Assembly: GCA_024178355.1 (NCBI GenBank)
Contig: JAMZNZ010000003.1
Span: forward strand, 124,001-188,000
Direction: 5' to 3'
Source: Maricaulaceae bacterium EIL42A08
Lineage (GTDB): Bacteria; Pseudomonadota; Alphaproteobacteria; Caulobacterales; Maricaulaceae
DNA length: 64,000 nucleotides
Each line of letters opens with the position of its first letter. Within the stretch, counting starts at the first letter, position 1. Positions 5,019 to 59,940 of the stretch are shown here, piece after piece. The notes beneath the pieces are model-generated. The model did not search any database. It was not told the DNA's origin and saw only the letters and a list, made by a program, of their open reading frames with translations. The position numbers and the translations under genes are program-made.

Positions 5019-6950
5019 ATGGAATCGACCATTTTCGGCCTGACCCCGACGGTGTTCTGGACGGCCTTTTTCGTTATCTCTACCTTCGGGCTTTATATCG
5101 GCATTGCCGTCTGGGCCCGCGCTGCAACCACTGACGACTTTTACGTTGCCGGTCATGACATCCACCCGGTGTTTAATGGCATGGCGACAGCTGCCGACTG
5201 GATGAGCGCAGCCTCATTCCTGTCCATGGCGGGCCTCATTGCGTTCATGGGCTATGACGGTTCGGTCTTCTTGATGGGCTGGACGGGTGGCTATGTGCTG
5301 CTGGCGCTCCTGCTGGCACCCTATCTGCGCAAGTTTGGCAAGTTTACCGTGCCGGACTTTGTGGGCGACCGCTACTACAGCCAGGCCGCCCGCATCGTCG
5401 CGGTGATCTGTGCCCTCTTCATCTCGTTTACCTATATCGCCGGGCAAATGCGCGGGACGGGCATCGCCTTTTCCAACTTCCTCGGCGTGGAGATTGAGCT
5501 GGGCGTGATTATCGGTGCGGTGATTGTGCTGTTTTACGCGGTCCTCGGCGGCATGAAGGGCGTCACCTATACCCAGGTCGCCCAGTACTGCGTGTTGATC
5601 TTCGCCTTTACAGTTCCGGCGATTTTCTTAAGCCTTCAAATCACGGGTACGCCGATCCCGCAGCTGGGCTTTATCGGCAATACGTCTGAGGGCGTGCCGC
5701 TGTTGGCGAACCTTGATCGGACACTGACGGATCTGGGCTTCACCTCCTATCTCCAGGGCGAGAAGGCCATGATCGATGTGGCTGCCATCACGCTTGCGCT
5801 GATGGTGGGGACTGCCGGTCTGCCGCACGTGATCATTCGCTTCTTCACCGTGCCGAAAGCGTCTGACGCCCGCAAGTCAGCAGGCTGGGCACTGATCTTT
5901 ATCGCGATCCTCTACACCACGGCCCCGGCAGTGGCGGTGTTTGCCCGGTCAAACTTCATCGATACGGTCAATGAAAGCACCTATTCCATCGACGTGGCCC
6001 GCGGCGAAGCCGAAGCTGCCGACATGGGTGAGGGCGCAACACCCCAGTGGTTCTACAACTGGGAACGCACCGGCCTTCTGGGCTTCACCGACAAAAACGG
6101 TGACGGCCAGATCCAGTATCGCGCTGATCCTGAGGTCAACGAGGTGACCACGCTTGATCGCGATATCTTCGTGCTGGCCAATCCGGAGATCGGCAATCTG
6201 CCCGGTTGGGTGATTGGTCTGGTGGTTGCCGGTGGCCTTGCTGCTGCACTGTCCACGGCCGCGGGCCTCTTGATGGTGATCAGCTCGGCGGTGTCCCATG
6301 ACCTGTGTCGGAAGGTGTTGTTCAAGAATATGTCCGACACTCAGGAACTGCTGGTCGCGCGCTTTGCGGCTGTGGGGGCTGTGCTGGTGGCGATCTATGC
6401 AGGCATCAACCCGCCAGGCTTTGTAGCCGCCGTGGTGGCCTTTGCCTTCGGGCTCGGAGCTGCCAGCTTCTTCCCGGTGATCTTCCTCGGGATTTTCTGG
6501 AAGCGCATGAACAAGCAGGGGGCGATTGCCTCCATGACGGTCGGCCTGTCGGTGACCGCCGCCTACATCGTGCACTTCAAAATCGGCTTTACCTCCGTTG
6601 TTATCGGAGCCTGCGCCCTGATTGTCGCGGCGGTGCTGATGATCCTGCACTTTGGCCTCAAGGATGAGAGCGATACCCGGCCGATGTTCTTCGGTTCGCT
6701 GGCTCTGATCGGTGTGTTTGCACTCGGCGCATTTGGCATCCTGCCAGACATTGCCATGGGCACGGCTGATCAATGGTTCCTGGGCATCTCTCCGGAGGGC
6801 TTTGGGGCTGTGGGCATGATGATTGCCATGGCGACCGCCATTGTGACATCGCTGGCAACCCAGGCCCCACCACAAGAGGTGCAGGACCTGGTAGAAGAGA
6901 TCCGCATTCCTTCTGCCAAGGCCCATGTGAGCCACGGTCCGGCTGAGTAA
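5019..6950 (+). CDS. actP: Cation/acetate symporter, SSS family (ActP-like, VC_2705 type)
   Basis: Inner-membrane Na+:solute symporter of 643 residues, predicted to import acetate or other short monocarboxylates. It shows the SSS fold, for example FYVAGHDIHPVFNGMATAADWMSAASFLSMAG near residues 42-75, AGQMRGTGIAF, YAVLGGMKGVTYTQVAQYCVL, GTAGLPHVIIRFFTVP and GGLAAALSTAAGLLMVISSAVSHDL. An extra hydrophilic stretch around residues 305-385 separates two transmembrane helices, as in the VC_2705 subfamily. The operon with a DUF4212 subunit, followed by a CrbS-like sensor, the CrbR-like regulator and acs, strongly supports acetate as substrate. A clear terminator follows at 6974. Confidence 0.9.
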   Translation: MESTIFGLTPTVFWTAFFVISTFGLYIGIAVWARAATTDDFYVAGHDIHPVFNGMATAADWMSAASFLSMAGLIAFMGYDGSVFLMGWTGGYVLLALLLAPYLRKFGKFTVPDFVGDRYYSQAARIVAVICALFISFTYIAGQMRGTGIAFSNFLGVEIELGVIIGAVIVLFYAVLGGMKGVTYTQVAQYCVLIFAFTVPAIFLSLQITGTPIPQLGFIGNTSEGVPLLANLDRTLTDLGFTSYLQGEKAMIDVAAITLALMVGTAGLPHVIIRFFTVPKASDARKSAGWALIFIAILYTTAPAVAVFARSNFIDTVNESTYSIDVARGEAEAADMGEGATPQWFYNWERTGLLGFTDKNGDGQIQYRADPEVNEVTTLDRDIFVLANPEIGNLPGWVIGLVVAGGLAAALSTAAGLLMVISSAVSHDLCRKVLFKNMSDTQELLVARFAAVGAVLVAIYAGINPPGFVAAVVAFAFGLGAASFFPVIFLGIFWKRMNKQGAIASMTVGLSVTAAYIVHFKIGFTSVVIGACALIVAAVLMILHFGLKDESDTRPMFFGSLALIGVFALGAFGILPDIAMGTADQWFLGISPEGFGAVGMMIAMATAIVTSLATQAPPQEVQDLVEEIRIPSAKAHVSHGPAE

Positions 6951-6973
6951 AACAGACGATCAGACCTGACCCG

Positions 6974-7005: not shown

Positions 7006-7092
7006 TTGTCCTTCCGCGACCCTGCGCCGCAAGCCGGTGCTTTCATTGGCGTATAGAATTGAAACTCGCCTCAGCAATTGGGAGAGACGCGT

Positions 7093-10000
7093 TTGGGCCT
7101 GACACTAGCTTTGGCAGTCCTTTTAGGCTGGGTGGCCCTCCTGTTTGTCATCGCCTTTTACGGGGATGCGCGAGCACACAGGCTTGATCGCACCCCGCGG
7201 TCCAGAGTCTGGCTCTACGTTTTTGGTCTCGGGGTCTATTGCACCAGCTGGACCTTTTATGGCGCGGTGGGGGATGCTGCGCGCAATGGCTGGGATTATC
7301 TGCCGATCTATCTGGGGCCGGCGCTGGTTTTCCTGATCGGCTTTCCCATTGTGCGCCGACTGGTACGCCTCGGGCGTGAGCATAATACCGGCTCGATCGC
7401 GGACTTTCTGTCGGCCCGCTATGGCAAGTCGGCGGCTGTGGGAGCGCTGGCTGCGGCAGGGCTTTTGCTGGCCGTCATTCCCTACATTGCGCTCCAGTTG
7501 AAAAGCGCAGCCTCGACGCTCTCTCTCATGGTGGAGGGGAACACCCCGGACGCTGTCTGGAGTATCGGTGCCGCCATCGCCTTTGCGGCCTTTGCCATCC
7601 TGTTTGGCCAGCGCAAAGCCGACGTAGCGGTGGGAAATCGCGGCCTTGTGCTGGCGGTTGCCACCGAGAGCCTGATCAAGCTTCTGGCCATGGTCGCGGT
7701 TGGCGTCTTTGCCTGTGTTGTGTGGACCCAGATCCCTGCGAGTGTGCGCAAGAGCGCGATTGAAGAGTCTGCTTTCATGGCGGGTGGCTTTGATGTGCGC
7801 TTCGTCGTGATCACGGTTCTGGCCGGGCTCGCGGCTCTGACCCTGCCGCGCCAGTTTCACATGATGGTGGTGGAAACCCGCAAGCCTGAAGATGCCCGAC
7901 TATCGCGCTGGGCGTTCCCCGCTTACCTGGCGGTTGTCGCGCTCGTGGCACCACCGGTGGCCTTCGTTGGTGCAACCATGCTCGGAGAGGCGGATCCCGA
8001 CTCTTATGTGCTGGCTCTCCCGTTGGCCATGGGGGCAGAAGGGCTAGCCATGCTCGCCTTTATCGGCGGCTTTTCTGCGGCGGCTGGCATGGTGACCATC
8101 TCCGCGCTGGCCATGTCGACCATGCTGGTCAACGACCTTGCCGCTCCTGTGTTGCTGAAATCCCGGCTCAATGCCGAGACTGGTCTTGCGTCGAACTTCC
8201 TGACCTGGCGCCGCGTGGCAGTAGTAGGCCTTGTCGGGGCTGCACTGATCTTCCAGCTGGGGATGGACCGCTCGGTGGGGCTTGCCGGGATCGGGCTTGT
8301 GGCGTTTGCCGGTGCCGCCCAGCTCGCTCCCGCCTTGTTGTTTGGACTGTTCTGGCGACGTGCTAACCGGGCTGGCGCTCTGGCGGGCATGGGCACAGGT
8401 CTGTTTCTCTGGTTCAGCCTGATCCTGGTGCCGACCTATACCGGCCAGCTGCCGCCTTCGCCGATGGGGGTGGACGCCTTCGCTTTTGCCAGCGCGGTCT
8501 GCCTGATTGCGAACACCGTCATCTTCATAGTGGCCGTGGCCTTTTCCTCAACCGGGCTCGTTGATCAGATGCAGGCTGACGCCTTTACCGGTCACGCCAG
8601 CAGGCACAGTCCAGACACCCATGGCGCGCGGGTGTCTGACCTTCAGTCCGTACTCATCCGCGTTCTTGGAGAGGTGGAGGCAGAAGCGACTCTGGCCGAG
8701 CTCTCAAAGACCGTCGGGCGGTCGCTGAAACCCAACGACACCCCGACGCCGGCCCTGATCAGTCTTGCTGAGGCGCGTCTGGCCCGTTCGCTCGGGGCGG
8801 CTTCGGCGCGCATATTGATGACGCGGGTTCTCACCGGCGCTCGGGTCAGCCCGGGCGATGTGGTGACCCTGATCGACGAAACCGCCGAAAAGCTGCGCAC
8901 CAGTCATGACCGACTTGAGGAGAGCGAGCGCTCCATCCGCTTTTACACCGACAACCTGCCAGCGCTTCTAAGCTATGCCGACCGGGATTACAGGCTGCGC
9001 TTTGCCAACAAGGGCTATCTCGACTTCTTTGATATCAATGAGAGCGCAGTTGGTGAGCCGATGGCCGCGTTCATGACCGCCGAAGAGTATGAGCTGCGCC
9101 GCCCTCATATGGAGGCTGCGCTCAACGGAGACCGTCAGGTCTTTGATATTTCGCGACGAAAGGGCGAGCGTCGCCGCCGGTCCTGGCAGGTGGTTTATCA
9201 ACCGCGCATCGAAAATGACGAGGTGGTCGGCTTCTTTGCTGTCTACCAGGACAATACCGCCAGGCGTGAGGCCGAGGAGGGCCTGCGACGCGCGTTCGAG
9301 ACCCTCGAAGCGCGTGTGGATGAGCGTACGGCCGCTCTGAAAGCTGAAAGCGAGGCAAGGCTCGATCTGGCCCGGGATCTGGAAACTGCAAGACGCACCG
9401 CCGAGGCCGCCACCCAGTCCAAGACCCGTTTCCTGGCGGCGGCCAGCCATGACTTGTTGCAACCCCTGTCCGCCGCACGCCTGTTTGCCGGAGCGCTGGA
9501 GGAGGACCTGAAGGAAGGATCTGAAGGACAGGCAAAACTGGCGCGGCGGATTGAGCATTCCATTGATCATGCTGACCGTCTGTTGCGGGCATTGCTGGAT
9601 ATTTCGAGACTGGATGCCGACGGAGTTACGCCCCGTCAAAGCGTCTTCTCACTGGGTGAACTGATCGAGGAAACCGCGGCGCAATTCATCCCGAAGGCTG
9701 AAGCCAAGGGGCTGAAGCTGAGGATCGTCCCGTGCCGCCTGGCCGTGTTTTCGGATCGTGGCCTGATGACCAGCGTGTTGCAGAATCTGATCTCCAACGC
9801 GGTGCGCTATACCCGGAGTGGAACCGTTCTGGTCGGCGCGCGCCGTCAGGGCGACACGGTGCGCCTTCAGGTGATCGACACAGGTCCCGGCATCCCCGTG
9901 GAGCGCCAGCGCGCTGTCTTCAAGGAGTTCGAACGCGGGGCCATGGCCGATCAGACTGATAGGGGTCTGGGTCTGGGCCTGGCTGTTGTCGACCGGATTT

Positions 10001-10503
10001 GCACCACGCTGGGCCACAAGCTCTCTCTACAATCGGTGGAAGGGCAGGGCTCAACCTTTGAAGTGACCCTTCCGCGCGCGGCCTCAGAGCCCTTGGCCAG
10101 ACGCTCCACTCGGCGCAGATCTGAAAAGCTGGATGGCCTGAAAGTGCTCTGCCTTGAAGATGAGGCCCCGGTTCTCGATGCCATGCTGGCGCTGTTGAAG
10201 CGCTGGGGCTGTGATGCGCGTGGTGCTCGCGATGAAGCCTCAGCGAGGGCGGCCTTCAGTGATGGCACCCCCGACGTTGTGGTTCTGGATTACCAGCTGG
10301 AAGACGGGGCCACAGGTCCAGCCGTTTACGGTGAGTTGTGTGAGATGTGGGGGGCAAAGCCGCCTGGCGTTCTGATCACCGCAGAGCGCGGACAGGAGCC
10401 CCAGGCCGCTGCGCACAAGGCGAAGCTGGAATTGATCCAGAAGCCAGCGCCCCCGGCAGTGCTGAGAGCGACACTCAATACCCTGAAGCGCAAGGCCGGG
10501 TAG
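7093..10503 (+). CDS. crbS: CrbS-like hybrid sensor: SSS transporter domain fused to PAS, histidine kinase and receiver
   Basis: The 1136-residue membrane sensor has an N-terminal sodium/solute-symporter-like domain (about 1-490, 12-13 helices), a linker matching the STAC position (about 500-590) and a PAS domain (about 615-720). A coiled coil (EEGLRRAFETLEARVDERTAALKAE) follows. The HisKA domain has ASHDLLQPLSAARL (phospho-acceptor His about 786), the HATPase has NLISNAVRYT and DTGPGIP, and the C-terminal receiver has VVVLDYQLEDG (Asp about 1066). This is the architecture of CrbS/MxtR kinases, which control acs and acetate-symporter genes. TTG at 7093 is chosen because GGAGAG lies 6 nt upstream; a TTG at 7078 has no such signal. 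It converges on the cognate-looking regulator with a 4-bp gap. Confidence 0.82.
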   Translation: MGLTLALAVLLGWVALLFVIAFYGDARAHRLDRTPRSRVWLYVFGLGVYCTSWTFYGAVGDAARNGWDYLPIYLGPALVFLIGFPIVRRLVRLGREHNTGSIADFLSARYGKSAAVGALAAAGLLLAVIPYIALQLKSAASTLSLMVEGNTPDAVWSIGAAIAFAAFAILFGQRKADVAVGNRGLVLAVATESLIKLLAMVAVGVFACVVWTQIPASVRKSAIEESAFMAGGFDVRFVVITVLAGLAALTLPRQFHMMVVETRKPEDARLSRWAFPAYLAVVALVAPPVAFVGATMLGEADPDSYVLALPLAMGAEGLAMLAFIGGFSAAAGMVTISALAMSTMLVNDLAAPVLLKSRLNAETGLASNFLTWRRVAVVGLVGAALIFQLGMDRSVGLAGIGLVAFAGAAQLAPALLFGLFWRRANRAGALAGMGTGLFLWFSLILVPTYTGQLPPSPMGVDAFAFASAVCLIANTVIFIVAVAFSSTGLVDQMQADAFTGHASRHSPDTHGARVSDLQSVLIRVLGEVEAEATLAELSKTVGRSLKPNDTPTPALISLAEARLARSLGAASARILMTRVLTGARVSPGDVVTLIDETAEKLRTSHDRLEESERSIRFYTDNLPALLSYADRDYRLRFANKGYLDFFDINESAVGEPMAAFMTAEEYELRRPHMEAALNGDRQVFDISRRKGERRRRSWQVVYQPRIENDEVVGFFAVYQDNTARREAEEGLRRAFETLEARVDERTAALKAESEARLDLARDLETARRTAEAATQSKTRFLAAASHDLLQPLSAARLFAGALEEDLKEGSEGQAKLARRIEHSIDHADRLLRALLDISRLDADGVTPRQSVFSLGELIEETAAQFIPKAEAKGLKLRIVPCRLAVFSDRGLMTSVLQNLISNAVRYTRSGTVLVGARRQGDTVRLQVIDTGPGIPVERQRAVFKEFERGAMADQTDRGLGLGLAVVDRICTTLGHKLSLQSVEGQGSTFEVTLPRAASEPLARRSTRRRSEKLDGLKVLCLEDEAPVLDAMLALLKRWGCDARGARDEASARAAFSDGTPDVVVLDYQLEDGATGPAVYGELCEMWGAKPPGVLITAERGQEPQAAAHKAKLELIQKPAPPAVLRATLNTLKRKAG

Positions 10504-10507
10504 GAGC

Positions 10508-11161
10508 CTAGCTGTCTGTTGGTGGCTCAACCAGAAGCGCCTGCGCCACCAGTACCGCCTGAGTGCGGTTGATGACATCCAGCTTTCTGAAAATTGCCGT
10601 GACGTGCGCTTTTACGGTGGCTTCTGAAATGCCCATATCATAGGCGATCTGCTTGTTGAGCCGCCCGGCGGCCAGGCCTTGCATGACACGTAGTTGCGCC
10701 GGGGTAAGCTGGGCGAGTTTCGCCGCCGCTTCAGCGGCTTCATCCGCCTCTTCGCTGTCGTCTTCTGGGGCCCAGATTTCGCCATCGATGATGGCCTGAA
10801 GCGCCTCACACAATGTGTCCATGCCAGCGGTCTTGGGGATGAACCCTGAAGCTCCAAACTCCAGCGCGCGAGCGGCAACGCCCGGTGCGGTGCTGGCGCT
10901 GATGACCACGACCGGCACATTGGGATAGGCGCGCCGAAGTTCGGCGAGGCCTACAAAGCCAGAGCTGTCTTCCATGTGAAGATCAAGGCAAACCAGCTCT
11001 GCGGCACCGGCCTGAAGCGCGGTTGCGGTTTCAGCCAGAGAGCTTGTCTCAACGACCGTCCGATCTGGGGCAACCCGACCGACTGCGGCTGCCAAAGCTG
11101 CACGAAAAAGCGGGTGGTCATCGGCAAGAAGGATGCGGCTCATATGGGGCGCGGCGTCCAT
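10508..11161 (-). CDS. crbR: CrbR-like NarL/FixJ-family response regulator
   Basis: Cytoplasmic transcription factor of 217 residues. The N-terminal receiver (ILLADDHPLFR; phospho-acceptor Asp in LVCLDLHMEDSSGF; VVVISAS; GFIPKT with the conserved Lys) is followed by an acidic linker (EDDSEEADEAAEAAAK). A LuxR-type helix-turn-helix ends the protein (LTPAQLRVMQGLAAGRLNKQIAYDMGISEATVKAHVTAIFRKL). AGGAGG lies 5 nt before the ATG at 11161. It lies convergent to the CrbS-like kinase and divergent to the porin gene upstream of acs. By homology to CrbSR and MxtR/ErdR systems it should activate acs and the actP operon; direct targets here are inferred. Confidence 0.82.
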   Translation of the reverse strand: MDAAPHMSRILLADDHPLFRAALAAAVGRVAPDRTVVETSSLAETATALQAGAAELVCLDLHMEDSSGFVGLAELRRAYPNVPVVVISASTAPGVAARALEFGASGFIPKTAGMDTLCEALQAIIDGEIWAPEDDSEEADEAAEAAAKLAQLTPAQLRVMQGLAAGRLNKQIAYDMGISEATVKAHVTAIFRKLDVINRTQAVLVAQALLVEPPTDS

Positions 11162-11233
11162 AAACGCCTCCTGATCGTCTTTGATGGCCTGACGCTAATG
11201 GTTGGGCGTTGCGGCGTCGCCTCACCAAAAAGT

Positions 11234-11275: not shown

Positions 11276-11369
11276 CCGCTTTGCCGACCTCTCGATACTG
11301 CTTGCCAAGACGCCGGACGATCGGCGCACGGGGAGCCTCGATGCTCCAGATAATCGGGAGGCTGCATAC

Positions 11370-12725: not shown

Positions 12726-12735
12726 ATCCCCCCGG

Positions 12736-12773
12736 GGTGGTGGGCCGCCTTCGGGTGGCCTGCCGCACCTTTT
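12736..12773 (+). terminator. Hairpin with TTCG tetraloop and short T-run between porin and acs
   Basis: GGCCGCC (12743-12749), loop TTCG, GGTGGCC (12754-12760), extendable outward with wobble pairs and followed by CTTTT. It can end porin transcripts or attenuate read-through into acs, whose start is 25 bp further on. Confidence 0.5.
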
Positions 12774-12797
12774 GCGATCTTACAAGGAGGTCGAACC

Positions 12798-14771
12798 ATG
12801 GACGGATCAATCCCAAAAGCTGCAGGCGGCGCACCGGCTCTGGTGCCAGTTCCCGACAGCTATGCGGAACATGCTTCTATCACCGCCAAGGTGTACGAGC
12901 AGAAGTACAAGCGCTCTCTGGAGGACCCGGACGGTTTCTGGCGCGATGAGCTTAACCGCCTTGATTGGTTTCAGGCTCCCACGAAGATCTCTGACGTCAG
13001 CTGGGATCCTGATGATCTCCACATTCGCTGGTTTGAAGATGGCTATTTGAACGTCGCCTATAATTGCATCGACAGGCATCTTGATCAGCGCGCCAACGAT
13101 GTTGCGATCATCTGGGAAGGCGATAATCCGGGTTTCCACCACTCGATCACCTATGCCCAGCTGCACAATCATGTGTGCCGGATGGCCAATGAGCTGAAGA
13201 AGATTGGCGTCAGGAAGGGTGACCGGGTCACCATCTACATGCCGATGATCCCGGAGGCGACCTTCGCCATGCTGGCCTGTGCGCGTATTGGCGCGGTTCA
13301 CACGGTGGTGTTCGGCGGCTTCTCACCTGAAGCCCTGGCCGGTCGCATTGAAGATTGCGGGTCTGAGTTCGTCATCACCGCTGACCAGGGCGTGCGCGGC
13401 GGCAAGGGCGTGGCGCTGAAGTCCAACGTGGACAAGGCGCTGGACCTGGTTGAAGGCGTGCGCGCCGTCCTGTGTGTGCGCCATACTGGCGCCAGCGTGC
13501 CCTGGGTTGAGGGGCGCGACTTCTGGCACCATGAGCTGGCGCTAGAGGTGGATGCCCAATGCACGCCAGAACCCATGAATGCAGAAGACCCGCTTTTCAT
13601 CCTCTACACCTCCGGTTCGACCGGAAAGCCCAAGGGAGTGCTTCACACCACGGGGGGATATCTGCTCTGGTCGGCGCTGACCTTTGACGCTTTATTCGAT
13701 GTGAAACGGGGCGAGGTATTCTGGTGTACCGCCGATATCGGCTGGATTACCGGTCACACCTATCTGACCTACGGGCCACTGGCCAATGGCGTCACGACGT
13801 TGATGTTTGAGGGCATTCCCACCTATCCGGCCCCGGACCGCTTCTGGCGGGTCTGTGCCAAGCACAAGGTGAATGTCTTCTACACCGCGCCGACGGCTCT
13901 GCGATCCGTCATGCGTGAAGGCGATGAGCCGGTTGAGAGGCATGACCTGTCATCGCTGCGCCTTCTGGGCAGTGTGGGCGAGCCGATCAATCCGGAGGCC
14001 TGGGCCTGGTATCACCGGGTTGTTGGCAAGGGAAAACTGCCCATCGTGGACACCTGGTGGCAGACCGAAACCGGGGCCTGTCTGATGACTCCGCTCCCGG
14101 GCGCGCATGCGCTCAAACCCGGCGCGGCGAGCTTTCCCATGTTCGGCATTGAACCGGGCCTGGTGGATAACGAAGGCAATCCGCTTCCCGACGAGGGGGC
14201 GGCAGAAGGCAATCTCATCATCAAGGGCAGCTGGCCAGGTCAGATGCGCACCGTCTATGGCGACCACAAGCGCTTTGCCGAGACCTATTTCTCGACCTAT
14301 CGCGGCCTCTACTTTACCGGTGATGGCGCGCGCCGTGACGAGGACGGCTATTGGTGGATTACCGGGCGTGTGGACGATGTTCTCAACGTCTCCGGCCACC
14401 GGCTGGGTACCGCCGAGATCGAGAGCGCTCTGGTCTCCCACCCGCTCGTCGCGGAAGCCGCGGTGGTCGGCTACCCCCATGATATCAAGGGGCAGGGCGT
14501 TTATTGCTACGTCACACTCAATGCCGGACTGGAGCCTACTGACGAGACGGCGAAGCAATTGCGCAATCATGTGCGCTCTGAAATCGGTCCTGTCGCCAGT
14601 CCAGACCTGATCCAGTTTGCGCCGGGGCTGCCCAAGACCCGATCCGGCAAGATCATGCGCCGGATTTTGAGAAAGATCGCCGAGAACCAGTTCGATGCGC
14701 TAGGCGATACCTCAACGCTGGCAGATCCGGCTGTGGTTGATGATCTCATCGAAGGCCGCGTGAACCGCTAG
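12798..14771 (+). CDS. acs: Acetyl-CoA synthetase (AMP-forming)
   Basis: Converts acetate, ATP and CoA to acetyl-CoA, AMP and PPi in the cytoplasm. At 657 residues it is full length for Acs. It shows [52 protein letters not shown], the P-loop-like [20 protein letters not shown] (about 265-285), [24 protein letters not shown] with the acetate-pocket Trp, and [13 protein letters not shown] with the catalytic, normally acetylatable Lys about 618. AAGGAGG lies 7 nt before the ATG. It is the last gene of the acetate module and is followed by a good terminator. Expected to be controlled by the CrbSR pair nearby. Confidence 0.97.
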
Positions 14772-45178: not shown

Positions 45179-45181
45179 CGG

Positions 45182-48383: not shown

Positions 48384-48426
48384 TGTCGCACCCTGTGTGG
48401 CCTGAGAATCTGATGGGGGTGCGACA
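48384..48426. promoter_or_regulatory. Ten-bp inverted repeat upstream of pcs
   Basis: TGTCGCACCC (48384-48393) and GGGTGCGACA (48417-48426) are perfect inverted arms separated by 23 bases. The centre lies about 113 bp before the pcs start codon. It may be a looped or two-turn operator, or an RNA hairpin in the leader, for control of the 3-hydroxypropionate genes. Confidence 0.45.
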
Positions 48427-48517: not shown

Positions 48518-51500
48518 ATGAACGAGATCGCAACGATGTCTGCAGGCGCAATGACGCCGCCCGTCGCGCGCACTAACACCATTGTTGACCGCGCCAGCTG
48601 GCAGGCCATGCGCGATGCATGCCTGGACAATCCCGGCGAATTTCATGGGCGCATGGCGCGTCGCAATATCTGCTGGTTCCTGGCCGACCAGGGCGATAAC
48701 GGCGTCTGGGCCTTCTTCGATGACGAGGCCAGCGCCTGGACCGGATGGGATGGCAAGACCGGCGCGCCGGTCACCCTCGACCTGCCCAAAGACTACGCCC
48801 CATGGGATGTGGCGCTAAACACCTCCAATCCGCCGAACTGGCGCTGGTTTGAGGGCGCGCTGACCAATGCGGCGTTCAACGAAGTCGACCGCCACGTGCT
48901 CGCCGGGCACGGCGCGGAAGCGGCGCTGATCTTTGAAGGCGACCGCTGGAACATGTCCACCAATGACGGGCGCGGCGGCCCTGTGGACGAATTCAAGGTC
49001 AGCCGCAAGGAACTGCTCTACTACTCGGTTAAATGCGCGCTGGCGCTGAAAAATCTGGGTCTGAAAGCCGGTGACCGCATCGCGCTGAACATGCCCAACA
49101 TTCCCGAGCAGATTTACTGGACCGAAGCGGCCAAACGTCTGGGCATCATCTACACGCCAGTCTTCGGCGGATTTTCCGACAAGACGCTGTCGGACCGCAT
49201 CGCCGATGCGGGCGCGAAGGTGGTCATTACCGCTGATGGCTGTTTCCGCAACGCCCAGCTCGTGCCGTTCAAGCCCAGCTATACCGACCCGGCGCTGGAT
49301 AACTTTGTAGCGGTTTCGGTCGCCAAGCAGATCCTTCAGGACACGCTCAGCGATCCCGATCTCGGCATCACCGCAGAAGACGCGGGCGTCATCATGGATG
49401 CGGTGGACGACACGCTGACCGGTGAAGTCACCGTGGAACGGTCCGACGTCATGCGCGGCGTGGGCAAGGCGCTGACCGAGATGGGCCAGACCGGCTCCAT
49501 CAATGCTGAACAGGCCGCGCGCCTTCGCATCGCCGCCGCTGCGGCGCTGGTGGACTCGCCTGATCGCGTCGAAGCGGTGATTGTCGCCAAGCACACTGGC
49601 CAGGCGGACCTCAGCTGGAATCCGTCCCGCGACCGCTGGAGCGATGACCTCACGGGTGCGGCGCTGGAAACCATCCTGTCTGAAGCGCGCAAGGCCGGGT
49701 TTGATATTGCCGACGAGGCGGCGCTGCTGGCGCTCGACGGACAGGACTTTGTGCGCGCTCTGTGGGCCAGCTGTCCGCCTCTTCCCGTTGATGCAGAATA
49801 TCCCAACTTCATCATCTACACGTCCGGGTCCACCGGTAAGCCGAAAGGCGTCGTCCACGTCCATGGCGGTTATACCGCAGGCGTCGCGGTGACCATGGCG
49901 GTGTCGTTTGATGCAGAGCCGGGTGATGTGCTCTTCGTGGTCGCTGACCCGGGCTGGATTACCGGCCAGTCCTACCTGATCGCAGGCGCCCTGCTGACCC
50001 GCGTCACGTCGGTGATCGCCGAAGGCTCGCCGGTTTTCCCGCACTCAGGTCGTTTTGCCTCCATGATCGAACGCCACGGCGTGACGATCTTCAAGGCCGG
50101 TGTCACCTTCCTCAAATCGGTGATGCAGAACCCGGAAAACCTTAGCGATATCAAGCAGTATGACCTGTCCTCGCTGAAGGTTTCCACCTTCTGCGCCGAG
50201 CCGGTTTCGCCGCCGGTTCAGGCCTTCGCCATGGAGCACGTGACCCCGTGGTATATCAACTCCTACTGGGCGACCGAGCATGGCGGAATCGTCTGGACGC
50301 ATTTTTACGGCAATGGCGATTTTGAGCTGCGGCCAGACGCCCACACCTATCCGCTGCCATGGATTGTCGGCGATGTGTGGGTGGAGGATCCTGAGGCTGG
50401 ATCACACTCTGGCGACACCTCCATCGCCCCCCTGTCGCGCACTGAAGACGGCGGCGTGCCGTTCCGCCGGGGTGCAGCCGGTGAGGAGAAGGGCGAGATC
50501 GTCATTGCGCTGCCCTATCCCTATCTGGCGCGCACCATCTGGGGCGATGCCGATAATTTCGTCATTGAGGCTAATGGTGCAGGCGCGAAAGTGCGCGATG
50601 GCTGGGCCGGTGATGCGACCCGCTATGCCGATACCTACTGGCGGCGCTGGAAGGGCGCTTGGGCTTACACCCAGGGCGATTTCGCCATCGCCCACGACGA
50701 CGGGTCTTTCTCGCTCCACGGCCGCTCGGACGATGTGATCAACGTGTCCGGTCACCGGATTGGCACTGAAGAAATCGAAGGCGCGATCCTGAGGGACAAG
50801 GCGCTCGACCCGAACTCGCCGGTGGGCAATGTGCTGGTCATCGGCGCGCCCCACCGCGAAAAAGGCGTAACGCCAGTGGCCTTTGTGACGCCAGCGGCCG
50901 GTCAGAAGCTGACGGTGGAAGACAAGCGCCGCCTGACCAATCTGGTGCGCACCGAGAAGGGCGCGGTGGCCGCGCCATCTGATTTCCTGGAAGTGCCGGA
51001 ATTTCCTGAAACCCGCAGCGGCAAATACATGCGCCGCATGGTGCGCGCGATCGTGGAAGGCGGCGAGGTGGGTGACACCACCACGCTTCGAAACCCTGAA
51101 AGCCTGGAGACGCTGAAAAACGTCGTGGAGGCCTGGAAGCGTCGCCAGAAGCTGTCGGAAGACCAGGCCCTGTTCGAGCGCTATCGCTACTTCCTGATCC
51201 AGTACAACACGGTGGCTGAAGGAAAGCGCGTGGCCACCGTCACAGTGACCAACCCGCCGGTCAACGCGCTTAATGAGCGGGCCATTGATGAGCTTGGTAT
51301 CATCGTGGAACACCTGTCGCGCAAGGCCGATGTGGCCGCGGTGGTGTTTACCGGTTCTGGCTCGGCAAGCTTTGTGGCCGGGGCCGATATTCGCCAGATG
51401 CTGGAAGAGGTGAACACCGTCTCAGAAGCCATGGCGCTGCCCAACAACGCCCAGCTGGCCTTCGCCAAGATTGAGAAGATGGGCAAGCCCTGTATCGCTG

Positions 51501-54055
51501 CGATCCAGGGCGTAGCGCTGGGCGGCGGGATGGAGTTTGCGCTGGCCTGTCACTATCGCATTGCCGAGCGCACGGCACGCTTTGGCCAGCCGGAAATCAA
51601 TCTGCGCCTGCTTCCAGGTTATGGCGGGACGCAGCGCCTGCCGCGCCTGCTGGCTGATCGCAAGCCGGAGACTGGCCTGCGCGATGCGCTGGATCTCATC
51701 CTAGGGGGGCGGGCCATCGATGCCGAGGCGGCGCTGGAGCTTGGGGCGATTGATCGACTGACCACCGGCGCGGATGACGCGCTGTCGCTGGCCCACGCCG
51801 CGGTGCGTGACTTCGTCAAGCACGGCGAGGAGAGCGAGCTGGGCGAAGCCTTCGTCGCCCGCCGGGACGCCACCGCACGCTGGCAGGGGCCAGGCGAAGC
51901 TGATCTCGACGCCGCGCTCGCAGACCCCTTCGTGCAGCGCATCTTAAAACAGCTGGACTGGGCAGGCCGCGACAAGGCTGGCGAACGCGCGCTTGGCGCC
52001 ATCCGAACGGGGTGGGCCGACGGCATGGAGGCAGGCCTTAACGCTGAAGCGAAAGCCTTTGCCGAAGCCATCATCGACCCTGAGGGCGGCAAGACCGGCA
52101 TCCAGCTCTTCATGGACAAGCAGGCTCCGCCGCTTCCCGTTCGCCGCGATGGGGTCTGGATTGATGACGAGCACGAGCCGCGCAAGGACAAGCTCATCAA
52201 GGAGGGCGACCTCCTGCCCGTGGGCGCGCCTTTCTATCCTGGCATCACTCCGATTCCGGAGTATCAGCTGGCCTTCGGTATCGCCAAGGACCCGGACACC
52301 GGTGCCCCGCGCTTTGGTCCGCCAGCCACCCATGAGAAGGAACTCATCGTTCCGGTGCGCAAGCCGGAGCCCAATGAGGCGCTGGTCTACATGCTGACCA
52401 GTGAGGTGAACTTCAATGACAACTGGGCGCTGACCGGCATTCCGGTGTCACCCTTTGATGGCCATGACGAAGACGTTCAGATCACCGGCTCGGGCGGTCT
52501 GGCGCTGATCGCAGCGCTTGGGACCGAAGCCAAGGCGCAGGGGCGTCTGAAGGTCGGCGATCTGGTCAATGTCTATTCGGGCACCAACGATCTCCTGTCG
52601 CCGGCGGTGGGTGATGACCCGATGTATGCGGGCTTCTCCATTCAGGGCTATGAGACCAAGACCGGCAGCCATGCCCAATTCCTGAATGTGCAGGCCCCTC
52701 AGCTCCACAAGCCACCGTCAGACCTGACGCTGGAACAGGCCGGAGCCTACACGCTTAATCTCGGCACGATCACCCGCTGCCTGTTCACCACGCTTCAGAT
52801 CACGCCGGGCCATACGATCTTTGTGGAGGGCTCTGCCACCGGGACCGGGCTGGATGCGCTGAAAAGCTCCATCCGCACCGGCCTTGCCGCCACCGGCATG
52901 GTGTCCAGCGAGGAACGGGCCGACTTTATCAAAACGCAAGGCGCGGTGGGTGCGATCAACCGTAAGGATCCGGCCTTCGCCGACGCCTTCACGCCTGTGC
53001 CTGATGATGCAGACGAGGCCATCGCGTGGGAGAAGGCCGGTGAGCCGATCCTTCAGCGTTATCGCGACATGAATGACGGCAAGCTGGCGGACTTCGTGGT
53101 CAGTCACGCGGGCGAACGGGCCTTCCCGCGCAGCTTCCAGCTGCTGGCTGAGGGCGGATCGCTGGCCTTTTACGGGGCGTCGTCGGGGTACCACTTCACC
53201 TTCATGGGCAAGACTGGCGAAGCTTCGCCGGAAGAGATGCTGGCCCGCGCTGAACTGCGTGGCGGGGAGTCGGTGCTGCTCTATTATGGGGCAGGCACGA
53301 CCGAGCTGGCCGACCAGAAGGGCCTGGAGATGATCGAGGCGGCGCGCCTGTTCAAGGCTCGCATCGCGGTCGTGGCCTACACCAATGCCCAGCGCGAATT
53401 CTTGCAATCGCTGGGTCTGGAGGACGCAGTTGAAGGTGTGATCAGCATCGAAGCGCTGAAAAAGCGCGGCGGTGAAGATTTCGACTGGCCTACCAGCCTG
53501 CCGCGCCTGCCAGATTCCAAGACCGAAACCGAAGCCTTCAAGCGTGGGGTTCGCGACTACCAGCAAAAAACGCTCAAGCCCTTCGGTTCGGCGGTGGGCA
53601 AGCTCTTGCGCTCGCCAGGCAATCCGCGCGGCGCGCCAGATCTGGTGATCGAGCGCGCAGCCGTGGACACGCTGGGTGTTTCCTCCTCGCTGGTACGTCC
53701 GTTTGGCGGTCGTGTCGTCTACGCCGAGGAGATGGCCAACAAGCGCTACACCTTCTACGCGCCGCAGGTCTGGACCCGTCAGCGGAAAATCTTGATGCCG
53801 ACCGCGTCGATCCTGGGCACGCACCTGTGCAACGCCCATGAGGTGGAGGTCATGAACTCCATGATCGCCGCCGGACTGCTGGATGTGACCGAGCCGACCA
53901 TGACGCCATGGGAAGGCCTGCCGGAAGCGCACCAGGCGATGTGGGACAATACCCACTCTGGCGCAACCTATGTGGTCAACCACGCGCTGCCCGCTGAAGG
54001 CCTGCGCACCCGTGATGAACTTCTGGAGTATTGGGCCTCGGCCGAGCGCAGCTAG
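48518..54055 (+). CDS. pcs: Propionyl-CoA synthase, trifunctional (3-hydroxypropionate to propionyl-CoA)
   Basis: Cytoplasmic fusion enzyme of 1845 residues, close to the about 1820 of Chloroflexus Pcs. Residues 1 to about 880 form an acyl-CoA synthetase ([20 protein letters not shown] near 431-450; catalytic Lys in TRSGKYMRRM). It carries an insertion of about 160 residues before the P-loop, as in known Pcs. Residues about 900-1190 are an enoyl-CoA hydratase/crotonase domain (GSASFVAGADIRQML, GVALGGGMEFALACHYRIAE). Residues about 1250-1845 are an MDR-type enoyl-CoA reductase (FVEGSATGTGLDALKSSIR near 1430). The steps are 3-HP-CoA formation, dehydration to acryloyl-CoA and NADPH reduction. 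The ATG at 48518 follows GGGGAGAGGG. Operon with mcr. Confidence 0.95.
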   Translation: MNEIATMSAGAMTPPVARTNTIVDRASWQAMRDACLDNPGEFHGRMARRNICWFLADQGDNGVWAFFDDEASAWTGWDGKTGAPVTLDLPKDYAPWDVALNTSNPPNWRWFEGALTNAAFNEVDRHVLAGHGAEAALIFEGDRWNMSTNDGRGGPVDEFKVSRKELLYYSVKCALALKNLGLKAGDRIALNMPNIPEQIYWTEAAKRLGIIYTPVFGGFSDKTLSDRIADAGAKVVITADGCFRNAQLVPFKPSYTDPALDNFVAVSVAKQILQDTLSDPDLGITAEDAGVIMDAVDDTLTGEVTVERSDVMRGVGKALTEMGQTGSINAEQAARLRIAAAAALVDSPDRVEAVIVAKHTGQADLSWNPSRDRWSDDLTGAALETILSEARKAGFDIADEAALLALDGQDFVRALWASCPPLPVDAEYPNFIIYTSGSTGKPKGVVHVHGGYTAGVAVTMAVSFDAEPGDVLFVVADPGWITGQSYLIAGALLTRVTSVIAEGSPVFPHSGRFASMIERHGVTIFKAGVTFLKSVMQNPENLSDIKQYDLSSLKVSTFCAEPVSPPVQAFAMEHVTPWYINSYWATEHGGIVWTHFYGNGDFELRPDAHTYPLPWIVGDVWVEDPEAGSHSGDTSIAPLSRTEDGGVPFRRGAAGEEKGEIVIALPYPYLARTIWGDADNFVIEANGAGAKVRDGWAGDATRYADTYWRRWKGAWAYTQGDFAIAHDDGSFSLHGRSDDVINVSGHRIGTEEIEGAILRDKALDPNSPVGNVLVIGAPHREKGVTPVAFVTPAAGQKLTVEDKRRLTNLVRTEKGAVAAPSDFLEVPEFPETRSGKYMRRMVRAIVEGGEVGDTTTLRNPESLETLKNVVEAWKRRQKLSEDQALFERYRYFLIQYNTVAEGKRVATVTVTNPPVNALNERAIDELGIIVEHLSRKADVAAVVFTGSGSASFVAGADIRQMLEEVNTVSEAMALPNNAQLAFAKIEKMGKPCIAAIQGVALGGGMEFALACHYRIAERTARFGQPEINLRLLPGYGGTQRLPRLLADRKPETGLRDALDLILGGRAIDAEAALELGAIDRLTTGADDALSLAHAAVRDFVKHGEESELGEAFVARRDATARWQGPGEADLDAALADPFVQRILKQLDWAGRDKAGERALGAIRTGWADGMEAGLNAEAKAFAEAIIDPEGGKTGIQLFMDKQAPPLPVRRDGVWIDDEHEPRKDKLIKEGDLLPVGAPFYPGITPIPEYQLAFGIAKDPDTGAPRFGPPATHEKELIVPVRKPEPNEALVYMLTSEVNFNDNWALTGIPVSPFDGHDEDVQITGSGGLALIAALGTEAKAQGRLKVGDLVNVYSGTNDLLSPAVGDDPMYAGFSIQGYETKTGSHAQFLNVQAPQLHKPPSDLTLEQAGAYTLNLGTITRCLFTTLQITPGHTIFVEGSATGTGLDALKSSIRTGLAATGMVSSEERADFIKTQGAVGAINRKDPAFADAFTPVPDDADEAIAWEKAGEPILQRYRDMNDGKLADFVVSHAGERAFPRSFQLLAEGGSLAFYGASSGYHFTFMGKTGEASPEEMLARAELRGGESVLLYYGAGTTELADQKGLEMIEAARLFKARIAVVAYTNAQREFLQSLGLEDAVEGVISIEALKKRGGEDFDWPTSLPRLPDSKTETEAFKRGVRDYQQKTLKPFGSAVGKLLRSPGNPRGAPDLVIERAAVDTLGVSSSLVRPFGGRVVYAEEMANKRYTFYAPQVWTRQRKILMPTASILGTHLCNAHEVEVMNSMIAAGLLDVTEPTMTPWEGLPEAHQAMWDNTHSGATYVVNHALPAEGLRTRDELLEYWASAERS

Positions 54056-54103
54056 CGCTTGGAATAGACGCCTTTTCTTGATTGATTTTTGGAGACGACC
54101 GTT

Positions 54104-57100
54104 ATGAGTGCCAAGACAGGACGCCTCACCGGTAAAGTGGTTTTGATCACGGGGGCCGCAGGCAATCTAGGCAGCGAGATGTCGCGCCGCTTTGCCCGCG
54201 AAGGGGCCACGCTGATCCTCACCGGACGCACCCGAGACCGCATCCAGGCCGCTGCTGACGCCGTTGTCGCCGAAACCGGCGTGCCGGCCGATCAGGTCTC
54301 GGTGGCGGTTCTGGATGGCGGCGATCCGGCGTCGGTTTGCGCCGCCATGGACGAGGTTAAAGCCAGCCATGGTCGCATCGACGTCCTGGTCAATAACGCT
54401 GGCTCTGCCGGTCCAAAGCAGCCGCTTGATAATGTGCCGCTGACCGAAGCGGAGATGAAGGCCAATGGCGATACCGAGACGGTGTCAGACGCCATGCGCA
54501 GCATCCTCGCAGTGACCTGGAATCTGGCGCGTGCGGCCTCACCATTGATGGCGCCGGGCGCTTCGATGGTGAATATCTCGACGATCTTTTCCCATACCCG
54601 CTATTACGGGCGCACGGCCTATGTGGTGCCAAAAGCGGCGCTTAATGCGCTGTCGAAACAGCTGGCCCATGAGTTCGGGGCGCGCGGTGTCCGGGTCAAC
54701 ACGGTCTTCCCCGGGCCCATCGAAAGCGATCGCATCCGCACGGTATTTGCCGCCATGGACGAGGTGCAGGGCAACAAGTCCGGCACGACGGCGGACTATT
54801 TCATGGGCCGCATGTCGCTGAGCCGGAGTATCGAAGGCGGCAAGCCCGACAAGACCCTGCCGACACCCAGCGACATCGCCCAGACCTGCCTGTTCCTGGC
54901 CAGCGATGAGAGCGCGGCGCTCAACGGTGCTGAAGTGGATGTGGCCCATGGCCTGAGCGCGGCCAAGGAAAGCAAGTCCACCTACATGACCCGCCCGACC
55001 CTGCGCACGCTGGATGGTGCGGGCCTGTCGGTGCTGATCATTGCCGGTGAAAAGTGGGATGAGGCGCTGGAAGTGGCGCGCACGCAGATCGCTTGTGGTG
55101 CGCGGGTGCTGCTGGGCACGGCGCGCGAGGCTGATGCAGCCCAGGCCCAGGCCCGGGCCAAGGTCTCTGACGATTTTGAAGGCCTGACCATCATGCGGCT
55201 TAGCCGTCTTGATGCTGACGCCATGGCCGAGCGCTTAAAAGCCTACACCGATGAGCATGGCCCGATTTCCAGCGCCATCGTCATGCCGGTCAAACCGGCG
55301 CGCTATTTTGCCGGTGCGCTTCTGGATGCCGAAGACGAAGCCATCAATGAGTTTCTTGAGGTGGAGCTGACCGGGGCGATCGCTGCGGCACGCACGCTGG
55401 CGCGCTACTGGAAGTCCGCCCCTGAAATGCCCCAGCCGCCGCGCTGTGTCTTTATGACCAATGCCGGCGACGGGGTCGGTGATGTCTACAGCAAGGTGCT
55501 GTCCGCAGGCATCACACAGCTGATCCGCATCTGGCGCGATGAATCGCGGGTAGATGTGGATGCGGGCCGGGGCGGTCAGGCGGTCTGGGGCAACCAGATC
55601 GTGCGCTATACCAACCGGGAGGTGGAGAACACGCGCTTTGCCGCCGGTCACGCCTCGCGGATCATCTTTAAAGAAAAGAAGATCAGCTCTATCGATCTTC
55701 ACCTGCCGGAAAATATCGGTGAGGAGACCGGGGCCAGCACCGGCATGGTCGGCTTTGCTGAGAACATCACCGGCCTTCATCTGGGCAAGGTGGCGCTGAT
55801 CACCGGGGGCTCTGCCGGTATTGGTGGGCAGGTGGCCCGCCTGCTGGCGCTGGCCGGGGCCAAGGTGATGATGGTTGCGCGACGCAAAAGCGAGCTTGAA
55901 GCTGCCCGCGAGCGTATCATTGGCGAGCTCAATGATATCGGCTTTTCCGGGGTGGAGCGCCGGGTGCGCATCATGGCCGATGTGGATGTTAGCGATTTTG
56001 CCTCGCTGAAAAGTGCGCTCGATGAAACCATCAAGGCCTGGGGCCGGGTGGATTATCTCATCAACAATGCTGGCGTTGCAGGCGCTGAAGACATGGTCGT
56101 TGATATGGATATCGACGCCTGGCGCTTTACGCTCGATGCCAACCTGATTTCCAACTACTTCCTGGCCCACCACGCGGCCCCACTGATGAAGAAGCAGGGC
56201 GGGGGCTATGTGCTCAACGTCTCGTCCTATTTCGGCGGTGAAAAGCTGCGCGCGGTGGCCTACCCGAACCGGGCCGACTACGCGGTCTCGAAAGCCGGAC
56301 AGCGGGCCATGGTGGAAAGCTTCTCGCGCTTTTTGGGGCCGAACAAGATCCAGTATAACGCCATTGCGCCAGGCCCGGTGGACGGTGACCGCCTGTCAGG
56401 TACTGGCGGTCGTCCGGGCCTGTTCCAGCGCCGCGCGCGTCTGATCCTTGAAAACAAGCGCCTGAATGCCGTCTACGCAGAGGTCATCAAGGCCGTGCGT
56501 GAGGGCGCAGAGCTCGACACGGTGTTGAGCCGCCTCGCCCACAACACGGCCGGTACGCTGTCCCATGACATGCTGGCACCGGAAGGCCTGCGCAAGCTGG
56601 CGCTGACCTTTGCCCGCCAGGGCGATGGCGTGTGTACCTGGGACCAGTATCTGCTGACCCCAACGCTGGCTGAGCGCCTGATCGCGCGCCTGCACACCGG
56701 TGGCTATCTGTTGAAGTCGGAAAAGTGGGGCAAGGTTACCGGAGGTGACTGGCTGAAGATCACGCCGCCTGATGATGCGCCTTTCCTGCCGACCGACCTG
56801 ATCAACACCAATGCCGAACAGATCGGCAAGGGTGTCACCTCCCAGCTGCATCTGGGGGCGATGCCCACTGAAGCCGATGTGGCCCAGGCCACCGTCTTCT
56901 ATCTGGCTGATCGCGCGGTGAGCGGTGAAACCTTCATGCCGTCTGGCGGCCTCAACGTGGAGCGCTCCACCGTTGAACGTGAGCTGTTCGGCGGCCCAAG
57001 CCAGGCGCGCCTTGAGAAGATGAAAGGCAAGATGGTCTGGTTTGTGGGCGATCACCTGGCCGACTATATCGCCGCCGCCGCAGATCGCCTGATCAACGAG

Positions 57101-57736
57101 TGCGAGGCTGAAGGCGTTGTCGTTCTTGCGCGCACCAAAGCAAGCGGCAAGGCGGTCACCGACCTCATCGACAAGAAGGCGGCCAAGGCGGTCCACGTGC
57201 TGGTCGCCGGCGATGATATCGAAGCGACCATGGACCAGGCGCTGGCCAAGTGGGGTCGTCCAACGACCGTGGTTTCGGTGCCGGGTGATGCCCTGCCTGA
57301 AACCCTGTTTGACGATGACAACCCGCTGTCGCCGGAGGCTTTTGCCAAGGTGGTCGACGACAATCTGACCCGTCACTTCCGGGTCTCGCGCAAGGCGTCG
57401 CTCTATGACGGGTGTCAGCTGGTGCTAGTCACGCCCGACGTGCCGTTCGGCACCCGCACCGCTGCGTTCGAGATTGCCAATTTCATCAAGTCGACGCTGC
57501 ACGCCTTCACTGCGACGCTGGCGGTTGAGAACGAACGGCTGGTCCACAATGTGCCGACCAACCAGATCAACCTGACCCGCCGGGTCCGCTCGGAAGAGCC
57601 GCGCAACGCCGAAGAGCACGCCGAGGAGCTAAAGCGCTTCACCACCGCCATGCTGCTGGTCGGCGCGCCGCTACCGGACTCCCAGGACAGCCGCTACCGC
57701 GCCCGCATCTATCGCGGCACGTCGATGACGGTGTAG
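54104..57736 (+). CDS. mcr: Malonyl-CoA reductase, bifunctional (3-hydroxypropionate forming)
   Basis: Reduces malonyl-CoA through malonate semialdehyde to 3-hydroxypropionate with NADPH. The 1210-residue tandem short-chain dehydrogenase matches Chloroflexus Mcr (about 1220) in order and wording. The N-terminal half has TGAAGNLG (16-23) and catalytic Tyr173-x3-Lys177 (YVVPKAALNAL). The C-terminal half has TGGSAGIG (about 567-574) and Tyr726-x3-Lys730 (YAVSKAGQRAM). ANQIVRYTNRE-type and RPGLFQRRARLILENKRLN segments are diagnostic. In known enzymes the C-terminal half makes the semialdehyde and the N-terminal half reduces it. ATG at 54104 with GGAG 9 nt upstream; the in-frame TTG at 54089 is less likely. 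It starts 48 bp after pcs, whose substrate it makes. Confidence 0.95.
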   Translation: MSAKTGRLTGKVVLITGAAGNLGSEMSRRFAREGATLILTGRTRDRIQAAADAVVAETGVPADQVSVAVLDGGDPASVCAAMDEVKASHGRIDVLVNNAGSAGPKQPLDNVPLTEAEMKANGDTETVSDAMRSILAVTWNLARAASPLMAPGASMVNISTIFSHTRYYGRTAYVVPKAALNALSKQLAHEFGARGVRVNTVFPGPIESDRIRTVFAAMDEVQGNKSGTTADYFMGRMSLSRSIEGGKPDKTLPTPSDIAQTCLFLASDESAALNGAEVDVAHGLSAAKESKSTYMTRPTLRTLDGAGLSVLIIAGEKWDEALEVARTQIACGARVLLGTAREADAAQAQARAKVSDDFEGLTIMRLSRLDADAMAERLKAYTDEHGPISSAIVMPVKPARYFAGALLDAEDEAINEFLEVELTGAIAAARTLARYWKSAPEMPQPPRCVFMTNAGDGVGDVYSKVLSAGITQLIRIWRDESRVDVDAGRGGQAVWGNQIVRYTNREVENTRFAAGHASRIIFKEKKISSIDLHLPENIGEETGASTGMVGFAENITGLHLGKVALITGGSAGIGGQVARLLALAGAKVMMVARRKSELEAARERIIGELNDIGFSGVERRVRIMADVDVSDFASLKSALDETIKAWGRVDYLINNAGVAGAEDMVVDMDIDAWRFTLDANLISNYFLAHHAAPLMKKQGGGYVLNVSSYFGGEKLRAVAYPNRADYAVSKAGQRAMVESFSRFLGPNKIQYNAIAPGPVDGDRLSGTGGRPGLFQRRARLILENKRLNAVYAEVIKAVREGAELDTVLSRLAHNTAGTLSHDMLAPEGLRKLALTFARQGDGVCTWDQYLLTPTLAERLIARLHTGGYLLKSEKWGKVTGGDWLKITPPDDAPFLPTDLINTNAEQIGKGVTSQLHLGAMPTEADVAQATVFYLADRAVSGETFMPSGGLNVERSTVERELFGGPSQARLEKMKGKMVWFVGDHLADYIAAAADRLINECEAEGVVVLARTKASGKAVTDLIDKKAAKAVHVLVAGDDIEATMDQALAKWGRPTTVVSVPGDALPETLFDDDNPLSPEAFAKVVDDNLTRHFRVSRKASLYDGCQLVLVTPDVPFGTRTAAFEIANFIKSTLHAFTATLAVENERLVHNVPTNQINLTRRVRSEEPRNAEEHAEELKRFTTAMLLVGAPLPDSQDSRYRARIYRGTSMTV

Positions 57737-57765
57737 GCGGAGCGCTAGCGCTTCAGCCGCTCCGC
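57737..57765. terminator. Hairpin between convergent mcr and fghA
   Basis: GCGGAGCG (57737-57744) and CGCTCCGC (57758-57765), perfect 8-bp arms directly after the mcr stop and reaching into the last codons of fghA. The loop contains the palindrome AGCGCTAGCGCT. No T-run is present, so function as a terminator is uncertain. Confidence 0.4.
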
Positions 57766-58590: not shown

Positions 58591-58592
58591 CA

Positions 58593-59702: not shown

Positions 59703-59940
59703 GGGCACTTCCTCCAAATCAAGGGCTTAACAATCATCGTCAGACGTAAACCAGGGTGGGCAACTTGCCAGCACAGGTGTGTAATCGAAGATGTGTTTAT
59801 CCTATCGGGGCTTAGGACCCAAGGCTGTGCCCGTTAGACCGCTACCCAAATTAATTCGGGTCTTTGGCGTCATCTGAACTAGTATTGGCTTCACCGGGCC
59901 TGAGGTTTCTCACTGCCTGCCGCAATGCCAAGGACATATC

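Follow-up and report, generated by a model that had tools for sequence, protein, structure and literature searches.

A propionyl-CoA synthase and malonyl-CoA reductase operon in a phototrophic Maricaulaceae bacterium with no detectable isocitrate lyase

Propionyl-CoA synthase (Pcs) and malonyl-CoA reductase (Mcr), key enzymes of the 3-hydroxypropionate (3-HP) bi-cycle of Chloroflexus, are known in Alpha- and Gammaproteobacteria (PMC9802188). Aerobic phototrophs of Microcystis blooms carry genes of the bi-cycle (PMC11089705), and partial bi-cycles without Pcs and Mcr have been described (PMC6593406). The key 3-HP enzymes are also found in the aerobic anoxygenic phototroph Porphyrobacter ULC335, for which a full fixation pathway is not reported (PMC10674011). 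According to a review, the opening steps of the bi-cycle could serve to refill the tricarboxylic acid cycle (PMC8307300), and an anaplerotic role as such has thus been suggested before. Here, we describe a pcs-mcr operon in a 64,000-nucleotide stretch (hereafter the window) of the genome of Maricaulaceae bacterium EIL42A08 (contig JAMZNZ010000003.1, positions 124,001 to 188,000). The enzyme pair is a known one; what makes the locus interesting is the missing glyoxylate bypass, together with the link to phototrophy. In contrast to ULC335, the window genome lacks the glyoxylate bypass block. It has the steps from acetyl-CoA to succinyl-CoA in common with the bi-cycle of Chloroflexus, and we do not claim autotrophy for the organism. 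Among the open-licence papers listed, screened by titles and the starts of abstracts, we found no report of an operon of this kind in Maricaulaceae, of the loss of the bypass or of a cross-phylum link with reaction centres.

The two genes are separated by 48 bp and each is preceded by a purine-rich stretch (Table 1). Pcs carries the three fused domains of its family in their fixed order and at the expected size (~1800 aa), namely AMP-binding (residues 160-607, with a C-terminal part at 765-836), enoyl-CoA hydratase (903-1084) and zinc-type reductase (1458-1557), as delimited by Pfam. The same three domains make up PDB entry 6eqo, which we take to be the Pcs of Erythrobacter NAP1; residues 22-1843 align to it with 3150 bits (phmmer), and the window Pcs is 75% identical to that encoded by the NAP1 gene (L060). 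The motif NFNDNWA is present, alongside two further motifs that are presumably those of acyl-CoA synthetases. In Mcr, Pfam recognizes two SDR-type regions. The whole protein aligns to 8hjw (residues 4-1210, 1133 bits) and to 8hi4 (residues 6-1210), and its halves match 6k8s and 6k8v, presumably structures of the Porphyrobacter dokdonensis enzyme. The residue numbering of 8hi4 fits that published for Roseiflexus Mcr (PMC10470521), which it probably represents. When the published residue list was read off this alignment, all 13 covered catalytic and CoA-binding positions of SDR1 and SDR3 proved identical (T165, Y172, R175, Y178, K182, S731, Y743, R746, Y749, K753, R785, L795 and R799), Arg1164 of SDR4, which binds malonyl-CoA, lying beyond the part of the alignment examined.

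Compared with three relatives from the genus, dN/dS amounts to 0.08-0.14 for pcs and 0.07-0.17 for mcr, indicating that both genes are under purifying selection. Together with the full-length matches, these ratios rule out a chance or composite open reading frame (ORF). A strongly foreign composition is likewise ruled out (GC 0.63 in the operon versus 0.61 in the window). With matches far beyond chance, the pair is confirmed, at the sequence level, as a genuine Pcs-Mcr operon. An earlier note, made from this DNA alone, had predicted both enzymes with the sizes and positions of Table 1 and 48 bp apart, which is borne out by the ORFs, Pfam and phmmer. It had also named residue loss and an outlying phylogenetic position as grounds for refutation; the Mcr positions covered are kept, and the window Pcs falls inside the characterised clade (see below).

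The glyoxylate bypass could not be detected in the window genome (2.99 Mb in 6 contigs, 99.99% complete), which yielded no match to isocitrate lyase (ICL). This enzyme is encoded in 13 of the 15 genomes of the genus, the other exception being a 1.7-Mb assembly in 240 contigs. The ICL locus was inspected in six of the 13. Four of them (G123, G203, G223 and G232) exhibit the order TonB receptor, malate synthase (aceB), ICL (aceA), a regulator with a ScfRs domain (scfR) and a BON gene, the TonB match in G123 being weak (28%). In G257 and G366, the aceB-aceA-scfR block adjoins the BON gene and no TonB receptor was seen in the stretch examined. The ScfRs domain, that of a short-chain fatty acyl-CoA regulator, was shown for G366 and G223. 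MeaB comes after the BON gene in G123, G203, G257 and G366, as does the mutase in G366. The window genome has the TonB receptor (C1:189113-191677) directly beside the BON gene (191874-192947), 196 bp away, and MeaB and both subunits of methylmalonyl-CoA mutase follow. A nucleotide search of this genome with the G366 stretch matched the BON, MeaB and mutase parts, whereas the first 5.4 kb (aceB-aceA-scfR) remained unmatched. As the contig measures 1.36 Mb, the missing block is no contig-end effect. No crotonyl-CoA carboxylase/reductase (Ccr) exceeded the cut-off in the window genome either; the best candidate was rejected as a true Ccr, since it reaches 147 bits against a cut-off of 379 and is Pcs itself. 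As G366, whose Pcs is the nearest to that of the window (89%), has pcs-mcr as well as the bypass genes, the operon seems to have been acquired first and the bypass to have been lost later.

The earlier note had taken the organism for an apparent heterotroph, which was wrong. Judging from its genes, it is a phototroph with a photosynthesis gene cluster: pufL and pufM are located ~56 kb from pcs, with bchC, bchX, bchI and bchO near them, all of these over their cut-offs. We infer that the genome belongs to the Oceanicaulis/Photocaulis group of Maricaulaceae; photosynthesis genes are already known in both Oceanicaulis and Photocaulis (PMC13029026).

To place the operon in a broader context, a Pcs alignment was scanned against one genome per species (84,980 species; tblastn, E <= 1e-3), which gave 369 candidate places, not all of them necessarily Pcs. 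The best 80 of the 369 encode Pcs 59-76% identical to that of the window and come, by record title, mostly from Sphingomonadales, but also from Beta- and Gammaproteobacteria, Gemmatimonadota, Chloroflexota and one Aneurinibacillus. The pair cannot be called rare, and the distribution given in the earlier note (Chloroflexaceae and scattered marine proteobacteria) was too narrow. Within the order of the window genome, pcs was present in 9 of 398 genomes. Eight loci from the window genome and its order brought the loci examined to 88, of which six end too early after Pcs for Mcr to be judged. Mcr lies at most 277 nt downstream of Pcs in 74 of the 82 testable loci, including the window, and follows it in 77 if three loci with interrupted alignments are counted, in agreement with the operon first proposed. 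The five testable loci with no Mcr after Pcs belong to four Chloroflexota and the Aneurinibacillus; two of them have just 1.1 and 3.3 kb of sequence beyond Pcs, and in three Chloroflexota (L125, L130 and L131) no Mcr was found within 7-10 kb. The Firmicute Aneurinibacillus danicus encodes a Pcs 59% identical to that of the window (L116:2249-7609); the remaining 3.3 kb of the contig hold no Mcr, the genome has no matched reaction-centre genes, and Pcs possibly serves another purpose there.

In a Pcs tree (FastTree, 85 of the 88 Pcs), the window sequence is located in a proteobacterial clade that holds NAP1 and Blastomonas; it groups with its own genus, then with metagenome-assembled genomes (MAGs) of Alphaproteobacteria, NAP1, Blastomonas and related sequences. 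For the 63 loci with both proteins, the Pcs and Mcr topologies (FastTree) have 31 splits in common at support >=0.9, out of 41 and 44 supported splits, respectively, and three Pcs splits conflict; shuffled names left 0-1 common splits. This agreement indicates that the pair has mostly travelled together.

The same survey linked pcs with phototrophy. From 89 pcs-bearing loci, we dropped one duplicate and eight on contigs that break off within the operon or shortly behind it; 50 of the remaining 80, plus 8, provided 58 pcs-bearing genomes for an ICL search (30 loci being left out), and 42 of the 50 were used for a test of reaction-centre genes (38 of the 80 being left out). Within the genus, these genes occur in all seven genomes with pcs and in three of the eight without (Fisher, 0.026). 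Outside the genus, they occur in 40 of 42 genomes with pcs, as against 3 of 38 without it, which come from the order of the window genome alone, five of these 38 being less than 90% complete (Fisher, 9.5e-17). Both tests ignore kinship, and the pcs-bearing group is a selected set. By record title, the genomes with both features span Alpha-, Beta- and Gammaproteobacteria, Gemmatimonadota and Chloroflexota. pcs tracks phototrophy across phyla in a strong overlap, uncorrected for kinship. The two pcs-bearing genomes with no reaction-centre match are the A. danicus genome and a Sphingomonas MAG (L074). As a separate observation, the genus relative G257 has two sets of matches to the L and M subunits of the reaction centre (C1:770818-772478 and 2175917-2177598), and four reaction-centre matches are also present in the genomes of L059, L063 and L085.

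We consider it probable that, in this putative aerobic anoxygenic phototroph of the Oceanicaulis/Photocaulis type, Pcs and Mcr form the reductive half of a route from acetyl-CoA to succinyl-CoA, which here most likely replaces the lost bypass. In such a route, acetyl-CoA carboxylase would convert acetyl-CoA into malonyl-CoA, Mcr would reduce the latter to 3-hydroxypropionate with two NADPH, Pcs would produce propionyl-CoA with ATP and NADPH, and propionyl-CoA carboxylase, an epimerase and methylmalonyl-CoA mutase would lead to succinyl-CoA, so that acetyl-CoA and two bicarbonates would yield a C4 acid. The cost in ATP and reductant would be high and organic carbon would be saved, a balance that favours cells with light-driven ATP synthesis. 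In Porphyrobacter ULC335, the 3-HP genes are raised by day (PMC10674011). Besides the mutase and MeaB, the window genome encodes AccA and AccD, both over the cut-off, and PccB, with PDB matches over its whole length (877 bits to 3n6r). From the genes, we infer the activity of Pcs and Mcr, the flux through the route and its dependence on light, as well as the presence of PccA and the epimerase.

Several observations weigh against this interpretation. PccB is identified by its PDB matches, whereas its best NCBIfam model is a methylmalonyl-CoA decarboxylase subfamily (769 against a cut-off of 999). PccA was not found around PccB (C1:417001-512000), nor the epimerase in the stretches examined, neither having been sought genome-wide, and malate synthase was missing in the nucleotide search and in the examined stretches. 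The search that the earlier note had proposed thus recovered the mutase and PccB and neither ICL nor Ccr, while PccA was not located. Moreover, an ICL-type gene is kept by 55 of the 58 pcs-bearing genomes, including all 6 others of the genus. In 22 of them it is a canonical ICL (E <= 1e-50) and in 33 a divergent relative of 530-590 aa (E ~1e-18 to 2e-23), which we take to be a second type of isocitrate lyase. NAP1 has such a divergent gene (G401), in contrast to the window genome, of a different family, which has none. The operon therefore usually coexists with the bypass, and replacement is not its general role. The idea, put forward in the earlier note, that the pair replaces or supplements the glyoxylate and ethylmalonyl-CoA routes gains support as replacement in the window genome, with no ICL found, no Ccr over the cut-off, and the mutase, PccB, AccA and AccD present; elsewhere the operon looks like a supplement to the bypass, and replacement looks special to this genome. 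The only other pcs-bearing genomes with no convincing ICL are a Gemmatimonas MAG (L115, no match) and a betaproteobacterial MAG (L083, weak match at 3e-14), both of which have pcs-mcr and reaction-centre genes. The link with light is itself imperfect, as three of the eight genus members devoid of pcs are phototrophic and the Sphingomonas MAG has pcs with no matched reaction centre. Finally, the missing bypass may reflect no more than an inability of the strain to grow on acetate, such as is reported for Apolloniradiicaulis, another phototrophic member of the family (PMC13029026, in which a search for hydroxypropionate found nothing).

The strongest rival explanation builds on this last point, combining the end of growth on acetate with a role of the operon in co-assimilation or as a redox sink. 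In the light, the operon would mainly consume surplus NADPH and ATP and aid the use of mixed substrates while being inessential on acetate, and the bypass would have been lost for unrelated reasons in a strain living on amino acids and C4 acids. The link of pcs with phototrophy, the retention of ICL by most carriers and the consumption of three NADPH per turn all fit such a role, as does Apolloniradiicaulis; co-assimilation has been proposed for ULC335 and for incomplete pathways (PMC10674011, PMC9802188). However, the window genome has kept acs beside a CrbS/CrbR-like sensor pair, which suggests that acetate is used, and has retained the mutase genes beside the missing block. We regard this explanation as rather unlikely. 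Far less probable is that Pcs serves the use of external 3-hydroxypropionate or acrylate (for instance from dimethylsulfoniopropionate), with Mcr as an accessory. Chemically, Pcs alone could do so, and the A. danicus locus, with no Mcr between Pcs and the contig end and no reaction-centre genes, would fit. Nevertheless, Mcr adjoins Pcs in nearly all testable loci, the two trees largely agree, Mcr is similarly constrained, and this use would not by itself predict the link with phototrophy. The least credible alternative is a full autotrophic bi-cycle including the malyl-CoA/mesaconyl-CoA branch, since, although the key enzymes are present and some photosynthetic Burkholderiales MAGs were judged in a survey to have a sufficiently complete pathway (PMC9802188), Apolloniradiicaulis shows no photoautotrophic growth (PMC13029026).

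The surroundings of the operon (Table 1) differ between relatives. Directly upstream of pcs, on the minus strand (44090-48243), are genes for a CrtC-like lipocalin, an FtsX-type permease and a LolD-like ATPase; downstream (57745-59717) and convergent with mcr are those for S-formylglutathione hydrolase and class III alcohol dehydrogenase, for formaldehyde detoxification. None of the six genus relatives has these genes beside pcs-mcr, the fetched flanks being short for some, while G223, G305 and G232 have flanks in common with each other. As its flanks are not common to the relatives, the operon seems to have moved. Pyruvate carboxylase, 2.2 kb downstream of mcr, is a bicarbonate-fixing anaplerotic neighbour that the earlier note did not list. 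The acetate block (5019-14771) also holds a DcaP-type porin. Its sensor genes resemble the CrbS/CrbR acetate system. The symporter-kinase fusion reaches no NCBIfam cut-off (best, a NahK/ErcS-type domain, 361 bits versus 400) and is CrbS-like by architecture.

Table 1. Genes of the operon and of the acetate and anaplerotic functions in the window
Feature	Position	Strand	Size	Details
pcs, trifunctional propionyl-CoA synthase	48518..54055	+	1845 aa	ATG 48518, stop at 54055
mcr, bifunctional malonyl-CoA reductase	54104..57736	+	1210 aa	ATG 54104, stop at 57736
Pyruvate carboxylase	59941-63378	+	1145 aa	NF009554 1804 bits (cut-off 965); TIGR01235 1786 (cut-off 1114); Pfam
VC_2705-family sodium/solute symporter	5019..6950	+		TIGR03648 802 bits (cut-off 321)
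Hybrid histidine kinase-sodium:solute symporter fusion, CrbS-like by architecture	7078..10503	+		Pfam SSF+PAS+HisKA+HATPase+receiver
LuxR-type response regulator, ErdR/CrbR-like	10508..11161	-		NF041830 ErdR 211 bits (below cut-off 390); Pfam
acs, acetyl-CoA synthetase (acetate activation)	12798..14771	+	657 aa	TIGR02188 983 bits (cut-off 725)

Regulation may also vary within the genus. The regions upstream of pcs were compared in the window and in loci L042, L138, L139, L140 and L141. In the window, a palindrome is present at 48385-48393 / 48417-48425, with arms GGGTGCGAC and GTCGCACCC; a similar one occurs in G366 and an imperfect one in G203. Matches to its half-site are no more frequent in the window than expected (2 versus 2.0). 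G223, G305 and G232 have a palindrome of a second kind, TGTTGCAAAGCAACA, upstream of pcs. Two kinds within one genus group suggest different regulators. By eye, most of the six relatives have a TGTAAAT...TTACA-like palindrome between aceA and scfR; it was not seen in this way upstream of pcs, and the idea of an operator common to aceA and pcs was dropped. Scans for promoters and terminators returned similar numbers of sites in the real and in shuffled sequences.

Returning to replacement of the bypass, a wider scenario, to which we give an even chance, is that the lineage swapped the bypass for a bicarbonate-fixing 3-HP route, Pcs-Mcr being a carbon-saving anaplerotic module held by phototrophs because light pays for the ATP. 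The relatives, with the bypass alone or with both systems, would then represent earlier states and the window genome the end state. The module would span at least two phyla, Pseudomonadota and Gemmatimonadota, beside Chloroflexota with unlinked genes. The window genome bears on the role of Pcs and Mcr in proteobacteria with no known complete bi-cycle, and lends itself to a natural test, in that any growth of the strain on acetate would have to proceed with no detectable ICL or Ccr to fall back on. The overlap between pcs and reaction centres hints at a light-driven incorporation of bicarbonate into C4 acids by aerobic phototrophs; if true, this would bear on the amount of inorganic carbon taken up by such aquatic bacteria.

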